Positions 3,482-29,106 of a DNA stretch of 64,000 bases are shown here, piece by piece (positions within the stretch are counted from its first letter, which is position 1; each line of letters opens with the position of its first letter). Below the pieces are notes generated by a model, which had not been told where the DNA came from, searched no databases, and was given only the letters and a program-made list of their open reading frames with translations. Position numbers and translations under genes: made by a program. The stretch is from Methanobrevibacter thaueri (GTDB taxonomy: Archaea; Methanobacteriota; Methanobacteria; Methanobacteriales; Methanobacteriaceae): assembly GCF_015062915.1 (NCBI RefSeq), contig NZ_SUTJ01000001.1, positions 192,045 to 256,044 on the forward strand. Direction: 5' to 3'.

Positions 3482-6400
3482 CTATTTTTTAACAATAACT
3501 CTTTTTTGAACAGTGTTTTTAATATAAGTAACTTTGAATGCGTACTTTTTACCTGCTTTAAGTTTTTTAATCACATTCTTTTTAATCATAAAGGTAGCTA
3601 TTCCTTTTTTATTGGTTTTAGCCTTGTATGTTTTTCCCTTAAATTTCAAAGTGATTTTTTTACTTTTAATTGCCTTTCCCTTAGAAGTTTTTAAAGTTAC
3701 TTTTATTTTAAAGGTTTTTGCAGACTTTTTCACTTTAACATTGGATGTCTTGATAACCTGTTTTACTGTTAGTTTATTGGTCGTCTTATATCCTTTGTAT
3801 TCGGCAGTTATAGTGTATGTTTTTGGAACAGAAACAATTTTTAATGATGCATATCCATTCTTATCAGTTTTGGAAGTGTATTTCACTTTATTGATATAGA
3901 ATGTTACAGTTTGTCCGGCTCCAACATAACGACCATCATCACCTATGATGCGAACTTTAAAGCTTGACCCATCGGCGTAATCCATTACCAGATTTTTATT
4001 ATCAACTATTCTTTTTGAAATTGTGAATTTTTTGGTGATTGATTCATTGCTGATTGGATTTGTCAATTCGATTGAGTATGTGCCCACTGCCAATTTTTTA
4101 TTAAGCTTAACAATTCCATTTGCATCACTAATTAGTGAATATTCTTTTCCATTCACTTTAAATATTATAATAGAATCGTTTAAAGGCTTACTGTCAACAT
4201 TCAATAATCCAAATTCATAATCGCATCCACTGTTATATCCTCTGGTCATGTCGTTTGCATGAATGGTTGACAATACTTTAATTATTGCACTTGATTGAGC
4301 GGCAAGATAATTTTCATTCCCATCAAACCTGACCACTGCGCTGTAACTTCCTAACGGCAGACAATACTCAATGGAGGCAGCACCATTATCATCAGTTGTC
4401 AGCTGATGGTTTTCATTGTTTAAAGTGATTATAATACCAGCATTTTTAAGGACATTACCTTCACAGTCTTTCAGTAAAACTGTGAAATTATCTATAACGG
4501 AGTAATATACATATTTATCGGAAACCTCAAGAACTGTTGATTTTTTAACCACATTTAATGTGGCTTTTCCAACAATTACCACATATCTCCTGCTTCCAGT
4601 ATAATTGGCGCCGATTTCATATGTGCCTTCCTTATCAAACACATAATCAATGCTTGCAATTCCTTCAAGGGATGTTGCATGAATCTCCTCACCATTTACT
4701 TTAAACACGACCTCTCCACCGGTGATTGGGTTTGCCATATCATCGCTTACAAAAGCAGAGATTGTTGTCAAGTCATTCTTATAAACGGTGTGTGTAGTGT
4801 TATTTAAAATGTTTATATAGATATTCCCCGCCCTATTATCATTATAGATATAAGAACCGTTTGATGCTGTTCCGTTTGACATTATATTGTAGAATAAAGA
4901 GGTTATTCCCTTATTATAGATTACTCCTCCGATATTTGCAGCACTGTTTGAGAATATATTGTATTGTATATCAATATAATCATCTGTTCCTTCTGTATAA
5001 ATGGATCCGCCCTTGTCGGTTGCAGAGTTGTTATAGAACTCACAATGCTCAACCAATAAAGAAGCATAATAATTGTAGATTGCACCACCGTTTACCGCAT
5101 GATTTCCCTCAAAATAACAGTTGCTTATGACAGAACCTGCTTGAGCTAAAGAAATGGCACCACCAGTAGTGGCAGTGTTGTTGATAAATCTGGAATTATA
5201 AACATTTATCTCATTATCATTCAGATATGACATTGAAATTCCAATTGCCCCTGCAGTATTGTTTATGAATGTGCAGTTGTCAACGTTAAATCCTGATCCC
5301 CTGCTTGTTACATAAAGACAAGGCAATCCCCCATTATCCTTAAAACTGCAATCCTTAAAGTTCATTTTTGCGTAATCATAAATCATTACTGGCTTTGAAC
5401 TATTTTCAAACCTGCATTTTTCAAAATCAACTTTCGCTTGTTGACATCTGACTGCAGATTCGGTATTACCAAATTTATAAACCTCCACTCCATCAATTAC
5501 AGTTTTGTAGTATCCATTATTTGCAAAGTAACAATTATACAAGTAAGCATATGCATTGTATCCTGAAATGTGTATTGCTCCATTGGTATATTGCGGACCA
5601 ACAACACCTATATTTGTAAAGTTTGAATCGTAAACATACAGTTTTCCAGGATTTGAAATGCCAATGAACTCCGCAAAGTTATTTCCTTTAGGAACATTAG
5701 CAAATGAACAATTTCTGACTGTTAGAATTCCGGAACTTCGAATCGCTCCAAGTTCACTGCCTGAAGTGTGCAGTCCATTTTCAAAATTAATTCCAATGAG
5801 ATTAATTACTGTCTTTGACCCGAAACCAAATATCAAATATGATTTGGTCCTGTCAATCACAACTTTACCATTATAAGAAGAGATTGTTAGATTCCTATTG
5901 TTAATGTAATTCAATCCGACATAAGTGTTATTGTAAAACAGGTTCTTACAGACTACAGTGACATCATAAGTACCTTTTAGAAGATATATTGTTGCACCAG
6001 ATTCCTTTGCACGGGTTATTGCTTTTTCAATTGATAAAAATGGATTATTGATGCTTCCGTCACCGTTTTCATCATCTCCGTCCACTGCAAGGAAAATCTC
6101 TGTTAATGGAATTTCATATTCAAAGACTGTTTTCAATGTCTCATTATCCGCTGAGATCATGACTGTAGCGTTGTCGGTAATCTCTGAAATTCTATTTACA
6201 ATTGAATAAGCATTTTGTTTGTTTAAAATAACATGATAAGCATCTAAATTACCAGTATTGGTTGTTATTTGAAGCACCAATTCAGGTAGATACTCATTTA
6301 CAGTGTTGTTAAGGTTATCAGTTAACCAGACACTGAATGCTGATTGCCATTCTGTTCTTAAAACCTGTTTTTCCTGGCTTTGGGATAAAATAAACCAGGA

Positions 6401-8206
6401 GTCGCTTACTATTTCATTACCTAATGATAAGTAATCAGTATATGAACTTCCTTTATTGGATCCCCACCAGTTATTGTTTGCAACAACAGTGCCTAAATTA
6501 TTAAATAAATATCCATATTCATCTATGGATTTGATTAATGCGTCATTATTGACAATATGTGAATATTCAATGTTTAAACTTGCATCCATTCCCACATTCG
6601 CAATGACTGCACCTGTTTCGAGCAGTGTGTTGTTTCTTAATATGAGATTTTTCAGAGTTAAGTTTGAATTTGAACCAACATCAAATAATGGGTTGTGTTG
6701 AGAGTGAGAGTTTAGTATTGTTAAATTAGTGATGTTTACATTAATATTATCATTAAGCACTAAAAAACCATTATTTGAAGTGATTGACACATAATCTGTT
6801 TTGTATGGAGTTGCATATGCTGAAACGGACATGTCACATGCCAATGTGTATGACTGTGGAAATGCATAATCCCCTTCAAACAGAACTATTTTGTTTACTG
6901 CACCATTATTGACGGCATCAATCGCGTCACTTAATGAATAAGGATTGTTAAATGACCCATCACCTTCGCCGTCCTGCGCATTAGCAGAGACGTATTGAGG
7001 GGATGGTAAAATGTTCAAAGTCACATTGACAATGAAATCACCCATTTGAGCAGTGACCAGCACTTCACCAAGTTCAGAAGTTGTAAAGACAGAACTTGCC
7101 TTATTATTGGTCAAAATGACTTTTTTATCACTTAAATTGCCTGAGGAGGATGTGAATGTTATAGGAATTTCAGGAATATAAATGCGTGATGAAAAATCCG
7201 CTCCTCCGCTGGTAATCAATTTTGCAGTCAAAATAACCTGGTCATCAACAGTTGGATTGACATTGTCAGCAACGATAACCAGTCTTGAACTTGTAACATC
7301 ATATCCATTATAGTTAACTATCTTATTTATGCCTTCATTAGTTCCCCAGAAGTTTTCAGCTATCAATCCGTCCCGGTTGCTTGTTGCATAAACTGCATAA
7401 TTGGAATTTCCAAGGGCTATGCAATATTGCATTGATAAGAAACTGAATGTATTGGACCCGCCAAAATAGATGCTCCCTTGTTTTGCAGTGTTATTCAGGA
7501 ATATGCAGCTAGTTACATATAACTTATCTGACATGGAAAACATTTTTTCGTTACGGCCTTCATAGAATACTCCACCATTATTTGTTGCAGTGTTGTTTAT
7601 GAATGTGCAGTTGTAAAATGACCCGTAATATTGATTATAATTCTGGAAGTCGACAACACCACCATTTTGAGCATTACCGTTAATGAAGGTTATGCCATTG
7701 AAACTGAATGAACAGTCCGCAGTTAATTTTAGAATTCCACAGTTATTTTGTCCGTCAATAACTGGTTTTCCACCATCATATGAAGTGAAAGTTAAATCCT
7801 TACCTAATGATAGGGTGGAAGTGATTTTAAAGGTTGCATTGGCAAGATATATTGTTTTACCATTTGTTGCAACATAAATTGCCTTGTCAATTGATTTGTA
7901 TGGGCTGTAGTAAGACCCGTCACCTAAATTACTTCCTGATGGAGAAACATATATTCCATTTGAATCCGGTTGATATTCGTCTCCAAGAGGGGAATCTCCA
8001 CCTTCACTTAATAATATATCATATTCATTTTCAACATCATCGTTTAAACTTATTGTATCATTATCAACTTCAACGCTTAACTGTACAGTCCCGTTATAAG
8101 CATTTAAGTTTGTAGAGTCGCTGTCAATTGCAAATGAACATGTCATAACGCTTGAAAGCAACAATATGCACAGCAAGCAAAAAATAATATTTTTGTTATA
8201 ATTCAT
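3482..8206 (-). CDS. Giant adhesin-like protein: three beta-helix units plus Ig-like tail
   Basis: Predicted 1,574-residue secreted protein. I place the start at the ATG at 8206 (MNYNKNIIFCLLCILLL) because GAGG lies 8-9 nt upstream; an in-frame upstream ATG at 8251 would put 15 non-hydrophobic residues before the signal peptide. After the signal peptide come three pectate-lyase-like beta-helix blocks, each opened by a header of the type VSPSGSNLGDGS, VSANAQDGEGDGS and AVDGDDENGDGS followed by a P-x-x-S/I-I-x-x-A-I segment. They are rich in FINNTA/GGAIY repeats (Asn ladders, Gly-Gly turns). The last approximately 450 residues are Ig-like domains ending in a Lys-rich module (motifs TRGYNS, NKNLVMDY, KTDKNGYAS, KTNKKGIA). 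No membrane anchor is present. Likely wall-bound through the cationic tail. The ligand is unknown. Confidence 0.92.
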   Translation of the reverse strand: MNYNKNIIFCLLCILLLSSVMTCSFAIDSDSTNLNAYNGTVQLSVEVDNDTISLNDDVENEYDILLSEGGDSPLGDEYQPDSNGIYVSPSGSNLGDGSYYSPYKSIDKAIYVATNGKTIYLANATFKITSTLSLGKDLTFTSYDGGKPVIDGQNNCGILKLTADCSFSFNGITFINGNAQNGGVVDFQNYNQYYGSFYNCTFINNTATNNGGVFYEGRNEKMFSMSDKLYVTSCIFLNNTAKQGSIYFGGSNTFSFLSMQYCIALGNSNYAVYATSNRDGLIAENFWGTNEGINKIVNYNGYDVTSSRLVIVADNVNPTVDDQVILTAKLITSGGADFSSRIYIPEIPITFTSSSGNLSDKKVILTNNKASSVFTTSELGEVLVTAQMGDFIVNVTLNILPSPQYVSANAQDGEGDGSFNNPYSLSDAIDAVNNGAVNKIVLFEGDYAFPQSYTLACDMSVSAYATPYKTDYVSITSNNGFLVLNDNINVNITNLTILNSHSQHNPLFDVGSNSNLTLKNLILRNNTLLETGAVIANVGMDASLNIEYSHIVNNDALIKSIDEYGYLFNNLGTVVANNNWWGSNKGSSYTDYLSLGNEIVSDSWFILSQSQEKQVLRTEWQSAFSVWLTDNLNNTVNEYLPELVLQITTNTGNLDAYHVILNKQNAYSIVNRISEITDNATVMISADNETLKTVFEYEIPLTEIFLAVDGDDENGDGSINNPFLSIEKAITRAKESGATIYLLKGTYDVTVVCKNLFYNNTYVGLNYINNRNLTISSYNGKVVIDRTKSYLIFGFGSKTVINLIGINFENGLHTSGSELGAIRSSGILTVRNCSFANVPKGNNFAEFIGISNPGKLYVYDSNFTNIGVVGPQYTNGAIHISGYNAYAYLYNCYFANNGYYKTVIDGVEVYKFGNTESAVRCQQAKVDFEKCRFENSSKPVMIYDYAKMNFKDCSFKDNGGLPCLYVTSRGSGFNVDNCTFINNTAGAIGISMSYLNDNEINVYNSRFINNTATTGGAISLAQAGSVISNCYFEGNHAVNGGAIYNYYASLLVEHCEFYNNSATDKGGSIYTEGTDDYIDIQYNIFSNSAANIGGVIYNKGITSLFYNIMSNGTASNGSYIYNDNRAGNIYINILNNTTHTVYKNDLTTISAFVSDDMANPITGGEVVFKVNGEEIHATSLEGIASIDYVFDKEGTYEIGANYTGSRRYVVIVGKATLNVVKKSTVLEVSDKYVYYSVIDNFTVLLKDCEGNVLKNAGIIITLNNENHQLTTDDNGAASIEYCLPLGSYSAVVRFDGNENYLAAQSSAIIKVLSTIHANDMTRGYNSGCDYEFGLLNVDSKPLNDSIIIFKVNGKEYSLISDANGIVKLNKKLAVGTYSIELTNPISNESITKKFTISKRIVDNKNLVMDYADGSSFKVRIIGDDGRYVGAGQTVTFYINKVKYTSKTDKNGYASLKIVSVPKTYTITAEYKGYKTTNKLTVKQVIKTSNVKVKKSAKTFKIKVTLKTSKGKAIKSKKITLKFKGKTYKAKTNKKGIATFMIKKNVIKKLKAGKKYAFKVTYIKNTVQKRVIVKK

Positions 8207-8421
8207 CACTTTAAACCTCACTATTATATCGATATAACATTGATTACACATATTTTTTAAAATAAGTTTTTATATATTTTTTTATTATAACTATTGCTAT
8301 AAATTCATATATATTTGAATAATATTCCTCCAAATACAATTTAAACAATAATAATATAAAATATAAAATTTATAAAGTATTATATGATTAATTTTCAATA
8401 ATTAATTTGTTATAAATCGGA

Positions 8422-10698
8422 TTGAAAGGAGGTGAAAATATAAATAAACGATGGTTAAATATTGCTTTTATTTTAATACTTTTCATATCATGCATTAATG
8501 TAATCCATGCCGAAGAAAATTGCACAAATCAAACGGACGGTAACCTGCTTTCCCAAATCGATAATCAAAGTGTTTATGAACGAAGTTCAGATGATTTGCT
8601 AACTGCAAAGCAAGGCACATATATTGATGCTCCTGATGAAGTTGAATATGATGTAATCGGGAAGAATTTTGACGTCACATTGCTAAGCAAGGAAAATAAA
8701 GCTATCCCCAATGCCAAAATCATCATTTCAATAGATGGCGAAAGCCATGAATTGAAAACAGATTCAAACGGTAAAGCATCCCTGCAAATTCGATTGGATG
8801 ATGGGCAATACAAGGTTACAACACAGTTTCAAGGAAATTCTCAGTACAACCCATGCTCAAAACAGACCTTGCTTTATCTGAACAACACAAAAGTCATTGG
8901 TGAAAACTTAACCAACGATGAAATCCAGGCAATCCTGGACAATGCAAAAGCAAACAATGTAATATTATTCAAGGGAGATTTGTATGAGAATGTGAACTTG
9001 ATAATTGATAAGAGATTAACATTGATAGGCAATGGCAACACTGTCATTAAATCCAACATTAAAGAGGCAATTTTTGAAATAAATGGCAAGAACAGTTCAC
9101 TGTCTTCAATTTCAGGTTTTAATCTGGATTCAGATGGCGATGCAATAAAAGTTAAAAATTCCGATTACGTTACCATAAACAACAATAAGATTGCTTCAAA
9201 AGGAAATGGAATTGTTGCCGAAAATGTGAGATACCTTGAGATTGACAGCAATGAAATCAACAACAATGCAGCTAACGGAATCGTGCTTGCATTTGCAGAT
9301 GATTGCAATGTCATCAATAACAAAATTTATTCAAATCAAGAAAATGGAATTGCACTTTCCAAATCTAATAACATTTACATCTATTACAATAACATCAACA
9401 AGAACAAAAAGAATGGTATTTACGCTTCAGACGAAATTGATGGTGTTTATTACGGAGATGTTGCAACTAATTTACATATTGGAAACAATGAAATCAACAA
9501 CAATGCCAAAAATGGAGTAGAATTTGAAAAAGTTGGCCAAAATGTAGTGATTGACTCAAATACAATCAACAGCAATTCATTTGACGGGATATACATATCA
9601 AAAGCATCAAATAATGTTACCATAACCTCAAATATCATCAACACCAATCTTGAAAATGGAATTTCCATATCAGATATTGGAAGCAACAGCATATTCTATA
9701 ATCTTATTTCCTATAATTCAGGCAGTGGAATTAAGTTTAATTATGACTATGTTCTTCCAAAAGGTCAGGACATTCGCTTTAACGTAATCATACACAATCC
9801 TCAAAACGAGATTGATGCAAGTGAAACCATATATGACCATGTGATTAACAGGTTGGATATCGGTGAAAACTGGTACGGAGGAGTTTTGAATTTATGTCCA
9901 AAGGTCAGAACCAGCAATATCAACATCACTATCAAGCAAATGGATGTTTATTTATTTAATGTGACTTTTTACAATTCAGACGACGAAATTGTTAGTCAAC
10001 TCCCATCAAGAATCGTTACTCATAAGGTTAATAATGGAAGATCAAAAAGCTTTGTGCTGTACAACGGAACCGGAACTTTTGAAAGGGATGCCTCTGATGG
10101 AAATATCATCTATGTTTCAGTTGACATGTCCACATATTCCATTGTCTACAAGTCAGATGATCCGAGTTTCCTGCATCTGGAATATCCTCCATACAGCCCT
10201 TATATAAGGCCTATTGAGGATGTCGGAAAACCTTATCCTAATCTGCCAAGACCGGGACTTCTAGAAGATATCACAGATGATAAACCTGGTGACGGAGGAA
10301 ATGATGATAATACTGGAGGCAACGGCGGATTAATTCCTGGAAATGGAAATGGTGGAACATCCAATGGCAATGGAATTTCTGGCAATGGAAATGGCAACGG
10401 TCAAGGAGCTACAACACAATCTGGAAATACCCATCAAAAGACAACATCTGGAAATGGAACCTCAATGCAGGAATCAGGTTCAAACAGCAATCCATCAAAT
10501 AATGTTGGACCAACTTCAAATGCTCCAAGTGCAGGTGAAGGTCAAGCCGCTGGAAATCCAAGTGTTGTTAAAAAAATTATTATTGATGAAGAAGATATCA
10601 TAAGAGTTACTGGAATATCATTGATATTGCTATTGATTCTTTTAACAATTGCATTTTATTATCGTGATGATATTAAGGAAATGCAATCAAAAATATAA
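8422..10698 (+). CDS. Membrane-anchored beta-helix adhesin-like protein
   Basis: About 750 residues. The signal peptide (NIAFILILFISCINVIHA) is followed by an Ig-like/carboxypeptidase-regulatory-like domain (about 50-150, motif DSNGKASLQIRLDDG), then a NosD-type parallel beta-helix with repeated N-x-I-x-x-N-x-x-NGI units (about 165-460), a Gly/Asn/Ser-rich low-complexity spacer (about 610-710), and one C-terminal transmembrane helix ISLILLLILLTIAFYY with a short charged tail. It would be anchored in the membrane and project through the wall. Its paralogue at 29107-31224 has the same plan. Start: the only conventional in-frame start is TTG at 8422, but the strong Shine-Dalgarno lies after it (8428-8435) and points to ATA at 8440, which aligns with the ATG of the paralogue. 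I give the TTG coordinate conservatively. Confidence 0.88.
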   Translation: MKGGENINKRWLNIAFILILFISCINVIHAEENCTNQTDGNLLSQIDNQSVYERSSDDLLTAKQGTYIDAPDEVEYDVIGKNFDVTLLSKENKAIPNAKIIISIDGESHELKTDSNGKASLQIRLDDGQYKVTTQFQGNSQYNPCSKQTLLYLNNTKVIGENLTNDEIQAILDNAKANNVILFKGDLYENVNLIIDKRLTLIGNGNTVIKSNIKEAIFEINGKNSSLSSISGFNLDSDGDAIKVKNSDYVTINNNKIASKGNGIVAENVRYLEIDSNEINNNAANGIVLAFADDCNVINNKIYSNQENGIALSKSNNIYIYYNNINKNKKNGIYASDEIDGVYYGDVATNLHIGNNEINNNAKNGVEFEKVGQNVVIDSNTINSNSFDGIYISKASNNVTITSNIINTNLENGISISDIGSNSIFYNLISYNSGSGIKFNYDYVLPKGQDIRFNVIIHNPQNEIDASETIYDHVINRLDIGENWYGGVLNLCPKVRTSNINITIKQMDVYLFNVTFYNSDDEIVSQLPSRIVTHKVNNGRSKSFVLYNGTGTFERDASDGNIIYVSVDMSTYSIVYKSDDPSFLHLEYPPYSPYIRPIEDVGKPYPNLPRPGLLEDITDDKPGDGGNDDNTGGNGGLIPGNGNGGTSNGNGISGNGNGNGQGATTQSGNTHQKTTSGNGTSMQESGSNSNPSNNVGPTSNAPSAGEGQAAGNPSVVKKIIIDEEDIIRVTGISLILLLILLTIAFYYRDDIKEMQSKI
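8428..8442 (+). promoter_or_regulatory. Ribosome binding site positioned on an ATA codon
   Basis: GGAGGTGA at 8428-8435 is followed by AAAT and then ATA at 8440-8442. The paralogue at 31224 has GGAGGTGA, AAC, then ATG. The spacing suggests initiation at AUA. The only ATG nearby (8451) is out of frame. Confidence 0.55.
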
Positions 10699-10865
10699 TT
10701 TCTTCTTTATTTCTCTTTTTATAATATTGTCGATGAAGTAAATATAACTTTTAATCGATAAATATCATTTTAATAAACAATTACTTATTAATAATTAATT
10801 CATTTGTCTAACATTAGTATTCTAAAAAAAGAATGTTACAAAAAAGTTTAAAAATGAATGAAATA

Positions 10866-10912
10866 TATTAAAAAAAGAAAAAGAAAAGTAATAAAACGGG
10901 TATTATTACTTT
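10866..10912 (-). terminator. Hairpin plus poly-U terminator of the 10916-14116 gene
   Basis: A 10-bp perfect stem (10885-10894 with 10903-10912, 8-nt loop) lies just past the stop codon. On the minus strand it is followed by a T-rich run (TCTTTTTCTTTTTTT). The convergent plus-strand gene ending at 10698 has only a T-rich tract after its stop. Confidence 0.75.
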
Positions 10913-10915
10913 ATC

Positions 10916-13900
10916 TTATTTTTTTACTTTGATTTTTACTTTTTTGGTTACTGCTTTGTAAGCGCCATCACCAGCAAACTTAACTGTTGCTTTGAAAGTA
11001 CCTTTTTTAGTCACTTTAACCTTAATGGTAGCAACACCTTTAGCATTGGTTTTAGCCTTAAAGGTCTTACCGTTAACTTTAATGGTAACTTGTTTTTTAG
11101 CTAAAGCCTTGCCTTCAGATTTCAAGGTAACTTTAATCTTTTTAGCCTTCTTAACTTTTAAGGTTGCTTTTTTAGCGGTCAAAGTAGTAGCCTTTTTAAC
11201 AACAGTGATTTTAACAGTTTCCAATGAAGAAACATATTTACCTGTAGTGTCAACGTATGAAATGTAAGCGAATTTAGTTGTAGCGCTTGCATATTTAACA
11301 GGCACATTAACAACACCATTAGCATCGGTAGGACCAATGAACAATGGTTCACCATCAACCTGAACAACAATCAAATCATTAGCAATAGGATTACCATACT
11401 GATCTTTCAAGGTGATTTTCAAATTACCATTGTTACCAGCCTTAATGGTAATAGGACTAGCAGTAATTGCAGTACCAATCAATTCAACAGGAGTTTCAAC
11501 ATCAAAGACTTTATCACCAGTGGTTTCAACAGTAACAGCTTTAACATCATCAGGTAAAACATTACCAGAAACATTAATAGGAGCTGAAAGGTTTAAATCA
11601 CCATTTCTACAGTAAATACTGAATAAAACAATATTATATGCTTTGGAAGCACCGCTAGCCAAAGTAACATTGTTACCAGTCACATTAATGTTACCTAATG
11701 AGGATGGGAAACCATGAGCTTCATTACCTTGCTCAGCAGCAATCAATACACTGTTATCAAGAGCAACAAAATCATTGTCTACAATAGCAATGTCGTTAGA
11801 AGCTTTTTGAATACTGATTACAGGCAATTCAGTCCAAACAATGTCACCTTCCTTGAAGTAACCACAGTTAATGAACTTGTTGTTTCTAATTACAGAGTTT
11901 TTAGTGGATGAACCACCGAAGTAAATAGAATAAGTGTTACCGATGAAAGTGTTGTTTTCAACAATATTAGATCCACTACCTTGAGCAATGGAAACACCAT
12001 CAAGAATAGGGCCTTCAAAGGTATTGTTCCTTACAGTAATCTTGGAAGATTGTCTGTAAATGTTAAGAGACTTGGAACCTTTTTCAACATTAACAGTAGG
12101 ATCATTAGCAATCACAGTAGTATAACCACCAGTAAACTTGTTGTTTTCAATAACAACATCAGTGGAACCTTGAACCACAACCGCACTACCGAAATTGGTA
12201 AATGTACAGTCAGAGATTAATCCACCGGTTACACCTCTCATGTTAACTCCCCAACCGTTTACAGAACCACCATAAACAAAGATGTTGCTAGGGTTAACAT
12301 CAACAAAGTCAAATCCTTGGATAGTTACATTGGAACCGGTAATATAGAATAAACCATTTCCAACACCGTTACCGATAATACGGGTGTTGTCACCTTTTAA
12401 TGTAATGTTGTCTTTAGCGATTGTGATACCGTCATCACCAAAGTCAAAACTAGGAACAGCAGTTAAATCAATTACAGCACCAGGGTTAGCAGCATCAATA
12501 GCAGCTTGAATATCAGCAGCAGTGTTATTTAAAACAGCCACTTCTTCACCCCAAGCAGTGTACCAAACCACATATTCACGAACACCACTAGCTAAAGTGT
12601 TATCATCAACTTTTAATGGTGCAAATAAGTTCAATTCAGTATCATCTCTGCATAAAACATGGAACAATACAACGGACCTACCATCTACATCAGCAGCCAA
12701 ATCAACTTGGTTACCTGTTACGTTGATGTTACCTAATGATGATGGGAAACCGTGAGCTTCGTTACCTTGCTCAGCAGCAATTAAAACACTATTAGTGAGA
12801 GCTGTGAAATTATTGTTTTCAATAGCAATATCATTGGAAGCCTTTTGAATGCTGATAACAGGCAATTTGTCCCATTCAACATCCCCTTCCTTGAAGTAAC
12901 CACAGTTAATGAACTTGTTGTTTCTAATTACAGAGTTTTTAGTGGATGAACCACCGAAGTAAATAGAATAAGTGTTACCGATGAAAGTGTTGTTTTCAAC
13001 AATATTAGATCCACTACCTTGAGCAATGGAAACACCATCAAGAATAGGACCTTCAAAGGTGTTGCCTCTAACAGTGATATCAGAGGATTGTCTGTAAATG
13101 TTAAGAGATTTGGAACCTTTTTCAACATTAACAGTAGGGTCATTAGCAATCACAGTAGTGTAACCACCATTAAAGAAGTTGTCTTCAATTACAACATCAG
13201 TGGAACCTTGAACCACAACCGCACTGTTGAAATCAGTGAAGTTACAATCTTTAACTAATCCACCTTCAACACTTTTAAAGTTAACACCCCAACCATTTAC
13301 AGAACCACCATAAGTGAAATTATTATTTGGGTTAGTGTCAACAAAATGAATACCTTGAATAGTCACATTAAAACCAGTAATGTAGAATAAACCATTACCA
13401 TCACCATAACCTTTAATAACAGTATCACCATTACCCATCAAAGTAATGTTACTCTTAGCAATAGTCAAAGAACCATCAGCAAAATCATAAACATCATAAT
13501 CAGTTAAATCAATAACAGCACCATCACCAGCGGCAGCAACCTTAGAAGCAATGTCACTCACACTTCCTTCAGCCGGTGCGGTGGATTTAACGGTTATTGT
13601 TACATAATTTATTTTAGTAGGATCCATTCCGCCGCTGTAACCACAGAATGTTTCATAATCATCATCTTCAACCGGTGTGAAAGTCACAGTATATGGACTG
13701 CCACTTGCTTTTAAGCCAGTTATTGGTACAGTGAATCCCCAGTCAGCCTGCATATCTTCCATATTTTTGACGGTACCGGTTTTTGTAGCTCCAGTATCAT
13801 CATTATAGCTGTATTGGAAACTTACTTCATCCCAGCATTGATAATCTTCATACCAGTAGACATTAGCATTGATTGTAGCTGTGTCTCCTTCATCGATTTC

Positions 13901-25900: not shown

Positions 25901-25933
25901 ATTTAATCTATTTACTTAATTACTTATTTTTTT
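25892..25933. terminator. Bidirectional terminator between convergent genes
   Basis: An 11-bp perfect stem (25892-25902 with 25906-25916) with a TTA loop. T-rich runs follow on both strands: TAATTACTTATTTTTTTATT on plus and a 7-T run on minus. The stem contains the TAG stop of the plus gene and abuts the stop of the minus gene. Confidence 0.8.
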
Positions 25934-26344
25934 ATTAATATTGCGTGCAAGCAGGCAATCGTAAACGTAAAAACCACACCAGAATACAACTGCAAATACG
26001 CATGCAATGGCAATCCATGTGATTATCGGTCCGATTCCCAGGTCAATCGGCATCCATTTCAAGTATGCTGCAATCAAAAACAGCACAGTCATTCCGATGC
26101 CCATCTGGAATATTATCTGGAACGGCAATGGCAAGTCTTCCCTTTCATATATCAATCCTGTCAATGAGAATCCCCAACCAGCCACAATGCATCCGAAGAA
26201 TAGATTGACTATATCTGTTCCTGAAAAGCTGATGTTTTGAGGACCTGCCTGATATGAAATTAAAACTGCAACAAGCAATCCAATAAAACAACCCACAAAA
26301 GCGCCTAATGCCAAACTTTCTATTATATCTGTTAACTTCATCAT
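25916..26344 (-). CDS. DUF3021-type four-helix membrane protein
   Basis: 142 residues with four predicted transmembrane segments (about 12-34, 45-65, 78-98, 104-130). It lies 5 bp downstream of a LytTR regulator gene. In Firmicutes, small four-helix proteins of the DUF3021 family are typically encoded next to LytTR regulators, and the length and topology fit. The proposed role is a membrane partner that modulates the LytTR protein. Family assignment comes from context and topology more than from a diagnostic motif. Confidence 0.75.
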   Translation of the reverse strand: MMKLTDIIESLALGAFVGCFIGLLVAVLISYQAGPQNISFSGTDIVNLFFGCIVAGWGFSLTGLIYEREDLPLPFQIIFQMGIGMTVLFLIAAYLKWMPIDLGIGPIITWIAIACVFAVVFWCGFYVYDCLLARNINKKISN

Positions 26345-26349
26345 AACAC

Positions 26350-26790
26350 CTACAAATCCAATGCCTTTTTGAAATCCGGCAAGTATTTTCTTGAGATATT
26401 GTCCTTCAATCCATTCTTAAGCTCAATGAACATCATTCCCTTAAGAGAGGGGGCAACCCTTTTAATCTTTTTGAGATTGACGATTGTGGTTTTTGAAATT
26501 CTTACAAAATCACTATTTAACCCCTCTTCAACCTGGTATAAAGGCTTTTTAATCAGATAATCATTATTTTCAGCGTATACCATGACCTTCTTGTCCTCAA
26601 CGCGTACCATGTAGATATCCTTCAGCTCCAGAAGAGTGATGTCGGAACCGCTCTTGACCGCCAGCATCTCGCTTTGATCCTCGCTTTCCAGAATATTTAT
26701 GGCCTTTGAGATGTTTTCTGTCAACTCATTTGTGTGAATGTCGGCATGAGGATTTTCAATATCTCTTGAAACGAATAAATTTACCTTCAT
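26350..26790 (-). CDS. LytTR-family DNA-binding transcriptional regulator
   Basis: 146 residues. The C-terminal LytTR domain occupies about 45-146, with the typical pattern of an initial strand (LLELKDIYMVRVEDKKVMVYAE), the FVRISKTTIVNLKKIKRV core and the KYLPDFKKAL terminal helix. The N-terminal about 45 residues are short and there is no receiver domain, as in the one-component LytTR/DUF3021 type. Middle gene of a three-gene unit (3 bp after the 2TM gene, 5 bp before DUF3021). Such regulators often control their own operon or surface/export functions; targets here are not known. This is a bacterial-type regulator, so acquisition from gut Firmicutes is plausible. Confidence 0.88.
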   Translation of the reverse strand: MKVNLFVSRDIENPHADIHTNELTENISKAINILESEDQSEMLAVKSGSDITLLELKDIYMVRVEDKKVMVYAENNDYLIKKPLYQVEEGLNSDFVRISKTTIVNLKKIKRVAPSLKGMMFIELKNGLKDNISRKYLPDFKKALDL

Positions 26791-26793
26791 TGT

Positions 26794-27069
26794 TTAATTC
26801 CTTAACCTTTCCATTTCTTCCTGAATCTTGCGTTCCCTGTAGCTTTCACTGTCAAAATCATCAACAAAAACATATGCCTTTAAAAAGTCGGCGATGACTC
26901 CGATTCCCCAGAAAACTATCGGAAACATTACCCACCAAAAGCTTGGTGAAAACAGCCAGTTTATAATAAATAATATTGCATTAACAATTATATATGCTTT
27001 TAAGTTTCTATAAAATTTTATTTTGAGATTAACACGTTCTTCTGCTCTTGCCCTTAAGTTATCTGTCAC
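26794..27069 (-). CDS. 2TM-domain small membrane protein
   Basis: 91 residues. A basic N-terminus (NLRARAEERVNLKIKFYRNL) is followed by two transmembrane helices (about 27-41 and 46-65) and a charged C-terminus (RERKIQEEMERLRN). This matches the 2TM-domain family, which is common as a stand-alone protein or fused to histidine kinases and LytTR proteins. The start is GTG at 27069 with AAGGTGAT 4-5 nt upstream. First gene of the trio with LytTR and DUF3021, presumably part of the same sensing unit. Confidence 0.82.
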   Translation of the reverse strand: MTDNLRARAEERVNLKIKFYRNLKAYIIVNAILFIINWLFSPSFWWVMFPIVFWGIGVIADFLKAYVFVDDFDSESYRERKIQEEMERLRN

Positions 27070-27164: not shown

Positions 27165-27209
27165 GCAATAAAAGAGAATTGAAATTAGTGGCTATAATAC
27201 AGCCACTAA
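27165..27209 (-). terminator. Terminator hairpin at the end of the kinase-like gene
   Basis: A 9-bp stem (27185-27193 with 27201-27209) with a 7-nt loop. It overlaps the TAG stop at 27192-27194 and is followed on the minus strand by TTTCAATTCTCTTTTATT. Confidence 0.7.
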
Positions 27210-27890
27210 GTAATATAATATTGATGTTATTGCCGGAACTGTCAGGTTGTCAATTCCACCGTAACTGAAGGCTTCACATAATGTTGCGACAGCTGAAATC
27301 ATTATGATGTAGACAATGTTGAATTCAGGCATTGTGCATCCGATTGATGTGAAAACCATCCAGACAAATACACTCATGACGGTTGTAACCACAAACATTG
27401 TAAGTGAACCTTCGAGGGATTTTGTACCGCCGAAGACTGTGTATTTGACCTTACCGAATTTCTGACCGATTAATGCTGCAAATCCGTCACCGTATACCAT
27501 TGGAACAATGGCCAGTGCCACAATCCATATGAAGAATTTAGGATCGTTTGCAGGTGAAAGCATTGAATACACTGCAATCAGTATTGTCCATATTCCCGCA
27601 TAGAAAAATAAACCTAAAGCATGGCCGGATTCGGTTACGCTGTTTTCTATTTTGACAGGTGAATATTCTGTCAGGAAGAACAGTGCTATTGTGATAGGCA
27701 GTGTCAAGAACCACACCATTACCCATGGATCTGAGAAAAATGGCATGGCAAATATCATGTTACCTACCATAATGTGTAAAAATTTACGTGAAACTTCGGG
27801 TCGTGTCTTTAAAACCAATTCAGCTACAACGAAAATGACAGCAACATAAACATATACGATAATTAATGCAAGGATATCCGAGAATATCAT
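27192..27890 (-). CDS. Polyprenol/phytol/dolichol kinase-like membrane enzyme (SEC59/VTE5 family)
   Basis: 232 residues, with about seven transmembrane helices. Family-type motifs are RPEVSRKFLHI near the N-terminus, YGDGFAALIGQKFGK (about 133-147) and GGTKSLEGSLTMF (about 154-166). These match the CTP-dependent lipid kinase group that contains plant phytol kinase VTE5, yeast dolichol kinase and diacylglycerol kinase DGK1. It would phosphorylate an isoprenoid alcohol (or diradylglycerol) with CTP in the membrane; the substrate is not known. It overlaps the upstream tocopherol-cyclase-like gene by 1 bp (TAATG), so the two are translationally coupled and probably act in one pathway. Confidence 0.85.
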   Translation of the reverse strand: MIFSDILALIIVYVYVAVIFVVAELVLKTRPEVSRKFLHIMVGNMIFAMPFFSDPWVMVWFLTLPITIALFFLTEYSPVKIENSVTESGHALGLFFYAGIWTILIAVYSMLSPANDPKFFIWIVALAIVPMVYGDGFAALIGQKFGKVKYTVFGGTKSLEGSLTMFVVTTVMSVFVWMVFTSIGCTMPEFNIVYIIMISAVATLCEAFSYGGIDNLTVPAITSILYYLVAVL

Positions 27891-29008
27891 TAGTCATCAT
27901 ACTCCCCGTATTCGCAACCTGCATTTTCGATTTTAACATGGTCAATTAGGGTTCCGTCTTTCTTGTATAATTTTATTTCACCCCAACCGTTTCCACCGTT
28001 CCATAGGCGGTTGTGTCTTTTGGTTCCGTTAGGTGCTTCATAGTTGAAAAGCATCATTTCATCACGTTTGCAGTACAATACCAGTTCCATTTTGGAGTTC
28101 TTATTGCTTGCATTGATGTGCCATGTGTTTACGTCTTCGCCTTCCTCAAAGTCAAAGTCTATTTTTACGAGGTTCCAGAATCTTGCGAAGTTGTATTCGT
28201 ACATGGTTCCCTCATAATAGAATCCAATCAATAGCTTACGTGGAATTTCAATACCGAAAGCCTTTGGCCTTCCTCCACCAGCTTCAAATGCGGAGTTGTT
28301 CAGTTTCTTACCGGTTATTAAACTTGTAATGTTACATGAGGAAATCCAAAGCCATGGTGAAGTAAAGTCTCCTCCCCAATTTTTATCCGCATAACCATAT
28401 GATTTTTCAGGAATGACCTCATATTCCTCTCCATCCAGCCAGATGGTTCCGCTGTATTCTGTCTTGATTCCTTCAGCATGCCAGAACATTTCAAATGCGT
28501 TTAATTTCCTGAAAAATGAGTTAGCACCATATCCCACATTAAAAGTGATTTTCTTGTCAATGTCCAAGTCCCACATCATGTCTCCAGCATCGGACATGTA
28601 TTCAGGGTGGTTTGCAGCATCCTCTTCAGACACTCTTGAAAAACCGCTCATGTGTGTTTCTGTAAGGCTGCAGTCCCCGACTTGGATGTTGAGCTCGTCA
28701 TCAGGGCAGTTGAAGTATTTCATTGAGTAAAAATTGTGAATCTGTTTTGGATTTTTACCCCATGTTCCTGCCTTGATCATACAGTATGATGGTCTTTTGC
28801 CTGCCTTTTGGTTTTCAGGCAATTGTCCAAGTGTAGGTTCTTCTTCAGCTAAATCCGGATTGCATACGAAGTATTCAATGAAGAATGGTTTAGGTTCACC
28901 TGTCTTTTTATTATATGCTGTTAATGAATGCCACCACCAGTCATATCCCTTTTTGGCAAGTGGTCCCTTGAGCATGTAATAGTCTCTTTTCAAATCACTT
29001 TTATTCAT
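27890..29008 (-). CDS. Tocopherol-cyclase-like (AttH/CrtC-type lipocalin fold) protein
   Basis: 372 residues. Features resemble the tocopherol cyclase family: N-terminal GPLAKKGYDWWWHSL, a central SYGYADKNWGGDFTSPWLW segment (about 214-232) and the C-terminal AGCEYGEYDD. There is no signal peptide or membrane segment, so it is probably cytosolic or membrane-peripheral. Plant tocopherol cyclase VTE1 closes the chromanol ring of prenylated quinols; methanogens are not known to make tocopherol, so the natural substrate must be something else or the protein may only bind a lipid. ATG at 29008 with GGAGGG 5-6 nt upstream. Translationally coupled to the phytol/polyprenol-kinase-like gene. Assignment is by motif recognition without a database search. 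Confidence 0.72.
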   Translation of the reverse strand: MNKSDLKRDYYMLKGPLAKKGYDWWWHSLTAYNKKTGEPKPFFIEYFVCNPDLAEEEPTLGQLPENQKAGKRPSYCMIKAGTWGKNPKQIHNFYSMKYFNCPDDELNIQVGDCSLTETHMSGFSRVSEEDAANHPEYMSDAGDMMWDLDIDKKITFNVGYGANSFFRKLNAFEMFWHAEGIKTEYSGTIWLDGEEYEVIPEKSYGYADKNWGGDFTSPWLWISSCNITSLITGKKLNNSAFEAGGGRPKAFGIEIPRKLLIGFYYEGTMYEYNFARFWNLVKIDFDFEEGEDVNTWHINASNKNSKMELVLYCKRDEMMLFNYEAPNGTKRHNRLWNGGNGWGEIKLYKKDGTLIDHVKIENAGCEYGEYDD

Positions 29009-29106
29009 ATTATCCCTCCAAAGGTAAGATAATATTTAATATATTTAAAATGTATTAAATAATTTATTATTTAAATTAGCAAAAAAAGAAGAAAAATAGA
29101 TGAATT

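Follow-up and report, generated by a model that had tools for sequence, protein, structure and literature searches.

A cyclase-like gene and a prenol-kinase-like gene form a conserved, repeatedly assembled pair in Methanobrevibacter

Results

The window, which here means the whole stretch of 64,000 nucleotides that was analysed, comes from Methanobrevibacter thaueri, a member of the family Methanobacteriaceae, and contains two adjacent genes on the minus strand. Reading the sequence, we found an ORF for a cyclase-like protein of 372 amino acids at positions 27890-29008, with a Shine-Dalgarno-like GGAGGG (29014-29019, minus strand) 5 nucleotides upstream of its ATG, followed by an ORF for a kinase-like protein of 232 amino acids at positions 27192-27890. 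The two frames are coupled by a stop-start overlap, TAATG (27888-27892, minus strand), in which base 27890 is common to the stop codon of the cyclase-like gene and the start codon of the kinase gene. A second Shine-Dalgarno-like element, GGGGAG (27902-27907, minus strand), sits 11 nucleotides upstream of the kinase ATG, within the 3′ end of the cyclase-like gene. An earlier note on this DNA had described both frames, their one-base overlap and a set of motifs (GPLAKKGYDWWWHSL, KNWGGDFTSPWLW, SRKFLHI, YGDGFAALIGQKFGK and KSLEG), and every one of these was found again; its title had also called the genes fused, which is wrong, since they are two separate reading frames for which 'coupled' is the right word.

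Both ORFs are real genes, with orthologues of 75-99% identity in most Methanobrevibacter genomes, the homologues being those of Methanobrevibacter MAGs. The arrangement is kept in 60 distinct Methanobrevibacter gene pairs. An overlap of 1-14 bases was seen in 47 of the 60, all of them from the window's genus or from MAGs titled Methanobrevibacter, and the other 13, from the M. ruminantium-type genus, have a gap of 40-208 bases. When plasmid records were searched with both proteins there was no match. Directly downstream of the kinase gene (25916-27069, minus strand), three consecutive genes of the window encode a 2TM protein, a DNA-binding protein of the LytTR type and a DUF3021 protein; this LytTR regulator set is of Firmicute style and is also kept in the relatives L076, L077 and L080.

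We then considered the family and fold of the cyclase-like protein. It matched the Pfam family Tocopherol_cycl (PF14249) with 45.1 bits against a curated cut-off of 26.6, the match spanning only profile positions 148-334 of 335, that is, the C-terminal half, and an NCBIfam search gave nothing useful. The nearest sequence match in the PDB was 7a0q (E about 0.02-0.03), which Foldseek names kievitone hydratase. The earlier note had proposed looking for an AttH/CrtC barrel by structure prediction, and such a two-barrel fold was found: an AlphaFold2 model built from methanogen homologues (pLDDT 82.9) gave 12 Foldseek matches in the PDB with E<=0.001, all 12 of the AttH/CrtC two-barrel type, with TM values of 0.42-0.51, which is a moderate similarity. 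Named among them were AttH NE1406, kievitone hydratase, Fsa2-type decalin-forming pericyclases and 25-phosphosteroid lyase; the superfamily also includes proteins with other chemistry.

The family-invariant residues of the protein are Y22-D-W-W-W-H27, Y206, D208-K-N-W-G212 and W219-x-W221, the blocks YDWWWH, YxDKNWG and WxW being unchanged in 122 of 122 homologues compared (49 bacterial and 73 archaeal sequences). In an alignment with kievitone hydratase, D208 and W219-x-W221 fall on its DRQWG...WTW segment, and D208, W219 and W221 match the CrtC-type catalytic aspartate and WxW pair (D268, W283 and W285). In a carotenoid 1,2-hydratase, D268, W110, W283 and W285 are essential by mutagenesis, the aspartate protonating a prenyl C=C bond and the tryptophans stabilising the cation (PMC12402844); the tryptophans of YDWWWH are likely to be the equivalent of W110. 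The protein thus resembles CrtC and kievitone hydratase in its two-barrel fold (Foldseek matches kievitone hydratase with an E of about 1e-8 to 1e-7), in a catalytic-type Asp followed by a WxW pair and in having no cofactor motif, but it differs from them in an identity of about 13%, in its own N-terminal YDWWWH and in that the DWWWH members are soluble proteins of anaerobic Bacillota and methanogens.

Comparison with VTE1 and canonical PF14249 proteins revealed a [DE]K[ND]WG...W block common to both sides, over the C-terminal half in which the DWWWH protein passes the Pfam cut-off. The N-terminus is different. Canonical proteins, from Methanobacterium-like genomes and Fusibacter, carry YFEGWY there, and their YFEGWYxK block is replaced by YDWWWH in all 122 members compared; conversely, a DWWWH profile gives canonical PF14249 proteins only 13-21 bits. 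On sequence grounds, the cyclase-like protein is to be classed in a separate, large Bacillota subfamily (DWWWH) and not with the canonical YFEGWY type, which makes 'tocopherol cyclase' an unsuitable name. The assignment made from the letters alone holds in outline for the superfamily, with the Pfam cut-off passed and an AttH/CrtC fold. A genuine plant-like tocopherol or phytol pathway (VTE5, VTE6 and VTE1) could draw on the family-level similarity of all three proteins, but with YFEGWY replaced by YDWWWH, with the homologous enzyme spread over non-photosynthetic anaerobes and with, to our knowledge, no tocopherol known from methanogens, we regard it as extremely unlikely.

Neither Pfam nor NCBIfam has a model whose cut-off the kinase-like protein reached. 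Pfam CTP_transf_1 (PF01148) did not match the window's kinase and was reached weakly by 2 of 14 relatives (best E 0.003); a PDB sequence search gave chance matches only, and the best fold match of the kinase model was the CDP-diacylglycerol synthase CdsA, with a probability of 0.99 and an E of only 0.04. The polytopic protein of 232 residues carries a motif close to the CTP site, D135xxA138xxxG142xxxG146-x10-K157SxEG161, and, towards the C-terminus, G212-x-DN, and both RKFxH and GxDN are conserved. The CTP-site motif of dolichol kinase is DxxAxxxGxxxGx8KKTxEG (PMC5853391), against which the window's kinase reads D135xxAxxxGxxxG followed by KSxEG, being one residue longer and having S in place of T. 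The nature of a polytopic membrane protein, the presence of bacterial relatives beside DUF92 and, in near form, the CTP-site motif are shared with VTE5 and dolichol kinase (COG0170 type), whereas the extra residue, the Ser for Thr, a score below the PF01148 cut-off and the DWWWH partner set the window's kinase apart.

The strongest clue to its role is the gene context of its bacterial relatives. In Clostridia these adjoin or are fused with DUF92, the family of the phytyl-phosphate kinase VTE6, and some stand beside squalene/phytoene synthase (SQS_PSY; loci with DUF92 context L207, L218, L219, L221, L241, L242, L244 and L245). The window's genome has one DUF92 gene, located elsewhere. Because DUF92 occurs both beside the bacterial relatives and in the window's genome, a route from a prenol to a prenyl diphosphate is plausible; geranylgeraniol and its phosphate are likewise accepted as substrates by VTE5 and VTE6 (PMC13415981). 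The protein looks like an isoprenoid-alcohol kinase of the VTE5/dolichol-kinase-like kind and may work like the members of that family, although we do not claim Pfam membership for it. Hence the phytol/dolichol kinase proposed in the earlier note is backed by the CTP-site-like motif and by the DUF92/SQS_PSY operons of relatives, and not by any Pfam or NCBIfam model at its cut-off. The Clostridia loci are of two kinds: operons of SQS_PSY, VTE5-like kinase and DUF92 (L218:681-3061, L219 and L221) and VTE5-VTE6-type fusion proteins (L207, L241 and L244), which together make up an apparent complete prenol salvage module.

A scan of genome contigs yielded at least 592 stretches encoding the DWWWH family among the matches listed, mostly from Bacillota, many of these being rumen MAGs, with a few from Chloroflexota, Spirochaetota and Myxococcota. 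In the cyclase tree the methanogen sequences split into two groups, each among bacteria. The main group, which contains the window, the M. ruminantium type, Methanosphaera and G007, adjoins Lachnospiraceae and relatives with a support of 100/99, and the second (G025, G060 and G065) lies within another Bacillota group, a placement supported by only 82/83. Since the two groups are each placed among bacteria, the cyclase entered the family in at least two independent imports, and the 100/99 placement points to Lachnospiraceae-like Bacillota as the source from which the window's gene was acquired.

We sought a shared operon in the bacterial DWWWH neighbourhoods and found nothing general, as neighbours vary. 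Minor recurring neighbours of the cyclase were DUF362, a small membrane protein and, within one clade of rumen Ruminococcaceae, an SDR with a BaiCD/OYE-like enzyme. At L156, L184 and L190 (around 8000-12100 or 5288-9472), which belong to Ruminococcaceae-like MAGs from the rumen, a BaiCD/bilirubin-reductase-like flavoenzyme comes after the DWWWH gene, and in two of these loci an SDR also stands behind it, a hint of a lipid- or steroid/terpenoid-modifying cluster. An Erysipelotrichaceae MAG has uraA-upp directly upstream of the cyclase-like gene (L159:5674-9116), and in a methanogen (L080:4195-7267) the order is uraA-upp-cyclase remnant-kinase, which is either a common block or a coincidence.

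To describe how the pair arose, we compared the kinase loci of the methanogens. M. smithii-type genomes have the order cofH-kinase-tmk2 without a cyclase. The window's genome and G039 have cofH-tmk2 at this site, with no kinase in between, and their sole kinase adjoins the cyclase gene, so that the kinase has been relocated and its old site is empty. The RpoB tree has the two genera as clades, with supports of 95/95 and 99/97. In the kinase tree, the cyclase-linked kinases of both genera stand together (100/99), apart from the tmk-linked kinases of both, and kinase monophyly was rejected for either genus (p-AU 0.0007 and 0.0025). This conflict between the kinase and RpoB trees indicates that the kinase, probably with the cyclase gene, was exchanged between the genera. 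As the simplest reading of the sequences, the cyclase-linked kinase, presumably accompanied by the cyclase gene, would have spread laterally and replaced the old copy, the two probably being transferred as one unit and not separately; an ancient kinase duplication with repeated loss is the alternative to lateral spread.

Cyclase genes of the second type were found directly upstream of the old kinase-tmk2 locus in G025, where cyclase and kinase are 81 bp apart, and in G027. The G027 arrangement is read from a short repeat common to two contig ends, and the cyclase frame there is interrupted, so this gene is perhaps a pseudogene or affected by sequencing errors. Both cyclase imports ended directly upstream of the same kinase. 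Fusibacter presents a third, bacterial joining, in which a canonical PF14249 gene follows a VTE5-like kinase after 9 bp; this locus (L209:1441-3117, Fusibacter bizertensis) is a VTE5-VTE1-like pair in a non-photosynthetic bacterium. The recurring adjacency of kinase and cyclase-family gene argues for a functional tie, the independent events being few. Collectively, the trees and the 60 distinct pairs confirm that the methanogens' gene pair is real and has formed repeatedly. M. smithii-type genomes (L296:2825-4058, L293:2972-3544) also carry, next to cofH and the prenol kinase, a second, divergent thymidylate-kinase-like gene; it scores below the TIGR00041 cut-off and remains at the site after the kinase left, and its product may be a kinase of nucleotides or of prenyl phosphates.

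Adjacency on the chromosome is no proof of a shared pathway. A kinase lay within about 8 kb of the bacterial DWWWH gene in 0 of 50 bacterial loci, 31 of the 40 cyclase-bearing bacterial genomes had no such kinase anywhere, and in Methanosphaera and G007 the cyclase is present and the kinase was not found even at E 0.1. These results contradict a VTE5-VTE1-like pair conserved across archaea and Firmicutes, for which the earlier note had proposed a neighbourhood survey: conservation side by side holds within Methanobrevibacter but fails outside it, in bacteria and in Methanosphaera. It follows that the cyclase needs no VTE5-type partner in Methanosphaera, in G007 or in the 31 bacterial genomes, since it is present there without the kinase. 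Co-occurrence of kinase and cyclase in bacteria was weakly raised (7/40 versus 23/341, p 0.03, kinship ignored) and, being weak and uncorrected for relatedness, carries little weight. The kinase is retained in G041 and G067, where the cyclase is lost or a remnant. The cyclase is therefore dispensable, and the persistence of the kinase without an intact cyclase suggests that the central function lies with the kinase and that the cyclase-like enzyme is an accessory to it.

The absence of the kinase near all bacterial homologues (0/50 loci) and the frequent dispensability of the cyclase would also suit a non-catalytic lipid binder that binds or shields hydrophobic compounds, its position beside the kinase being a chance insertion followed by later spread of the kinase locus. 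We consider this unlikely, as the Asp and Trp cluster is invariant in the 122 sequences, as it is in characterised enzymes of the fold, and as the gene arrived twice, independently, directly upstream of this same kinase; the prior odds of any one such arrival beside a given neighbour are about 1 in 1000.

Discussion

The pair is real, well conserved and evolutionarily interesting, and in all likelihood it is not a vitamin E pathway. Our best explanation, which we hold tentatively and with a little less than half our confidence, is a laterally spread cassette of gut Methanobacteriaceae that combines a cofactor-free enzyme acting on prenyl C=C bonds with a prenol salvage kinase leading from prenol to GGPP. 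Catalysis, nucleotide, substrate and order of steps we infer as follows. If the enzyme works as CrtC and kievitone hydratase do, Asp208 would donate a proton to a trisubstituted (prenyl-type) C=C bond or, in reverse, help a hydroxyl or phosphate to leave, with the invariant tryptophans forming a cage that would hold the tertiary carbocation; the outcome would be hydration, dehydration or allylic isomerisation, not tocopherol ring closure. The kinase, as the archaeon's own VTE5/dolichol-kinase-like prenol kinase, would use CTP to phosphorylate the resulting or remaining isoprenoid alcohol, and the DUF92/VTE6-like kinase encoded elsewhere would complete the conversion of prenol to prenyl-PP, for example of geranylgeraniol to GGPP, the archaeal lipid precursor. 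The cyclase-like enzyme would either make ready the prenyl compound on which the kinase acts or get rid of it. Thus the idea of isoprenoid-alcohol salvage put forward in the earlier note survives as the best working model, while its analogy with the plant pathway falls.

More doubtful is a further-reaching proposal, namely that DWWWH may be a new enzyme type common among anaerobic Bacillota, an acid-base prenyl-alcohol isomerase/hydratase or a prenyl-phosphate lyase, imported at least twice by gut methanogens and wired to their prenol kinase for salvage or remodelling of C20 isoprenoids, which would come from the cell's own lipid breakdown products or from plant phytol. If true, this would give archaea a hitherto undescribed route for isoprenoid salvage.

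By analogy with steroid breakdown, the order kinase-then-lyase appears to be a serious rival to the cassette reading, albeit one that we judge distinctly unlikely. Here the isoprenoid alcohol would be phosphorylated and the phosphate then eliminated by the cyclase-fold protein acting as a prenyl-phosphate lyase. Such a two-step kinase/lyase reaction is known in anaerobic cholesterol breakdown (PMC8449060, PMC11061730), 25-phosphosteroid lyase (25-PSL) is among the few significant fold matches of our model, and a kinase adjoins the cyclase-fold gene in the window. The 25-hydroxysteroid kinase and 25-phosphosteroid lyase likewise combine a kinase with a lyase of the same fold and act on a branched isoprenoid-type side chain. 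However, they differ in kinase type, in genes that are not adjacent, in a steroid substrate and in distant sequence, with about 10% identity to 25-PSL in the fold alignment, and the likeness is limited to the fold match and the kinase beside the gene. The steroid kinase is not reported as VTE5-type and its gene is not near a lyase candidate (PMC8449060), and most organisms with the DWWWH subfamily are without a kinase of this type.

A role in hydroxyarchaeol synthesis was set aside as very unlikely. The cyclase-like protein would then be a hydratase that makes 3-hydroxyarchaeol by adding water onto the Delta2 double bond of geranylgeranyl ethers, for which the chemistry of a CrtC-type hydratase is right, but no cyclase was found in two genomes that are probably those of M. 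smithii PS and M. stadtmanae DSM 3091, and both species are reported makers. Hydroxyarchaeol has been reported from this methanogen family, namely from M. smithii (2%) and M. stadtmanae (8%) (PMC5426731).

In the literature searched, which left most subscription journals outside, we met with no account of the pair or of how it evolved and with no assay, and searches on phytol/prenol kinase in archaea and on tocopherol in Methanobrevibacter gave no experimental work on the pair. The present analysis defines a large uncharacterised enzyme subfamily (the at least 592 stretches among the matches listed) that has a clear active-site signature and was joined on two occasions to a prenol kinase of archaea. 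Should the link prove functional, it would show by what means isoprenoid alcohols are recycled or modified in methanogens, among them the dominant methane producers of the rumen, and so cast light on a side of archaeal lipid metabolism about which little is known.

For mru_0432, a gene of Methanobrevibacter ruminantium M1, the name 'Tocopherol cyclase' appears in a paper on computational annotation (PMC7772410) as an automatic function label only, the pairing, evolution and mechanism lying outside that paper. This gene is presumably the orthologue of the window's cyclase-like gene, and the subfamily described above corrects the misleading label in the literature. G019, which we take to be M. 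ruminantium M1, carries the pair, and the cyclase frame there (L064:7055-8122) breaks near the C-terminus, leaving 355 amino acids with the rest in another frame; because of this break, the annotated 'tocopherol cyclase' of M1 may be inactive, or the sequence in error.
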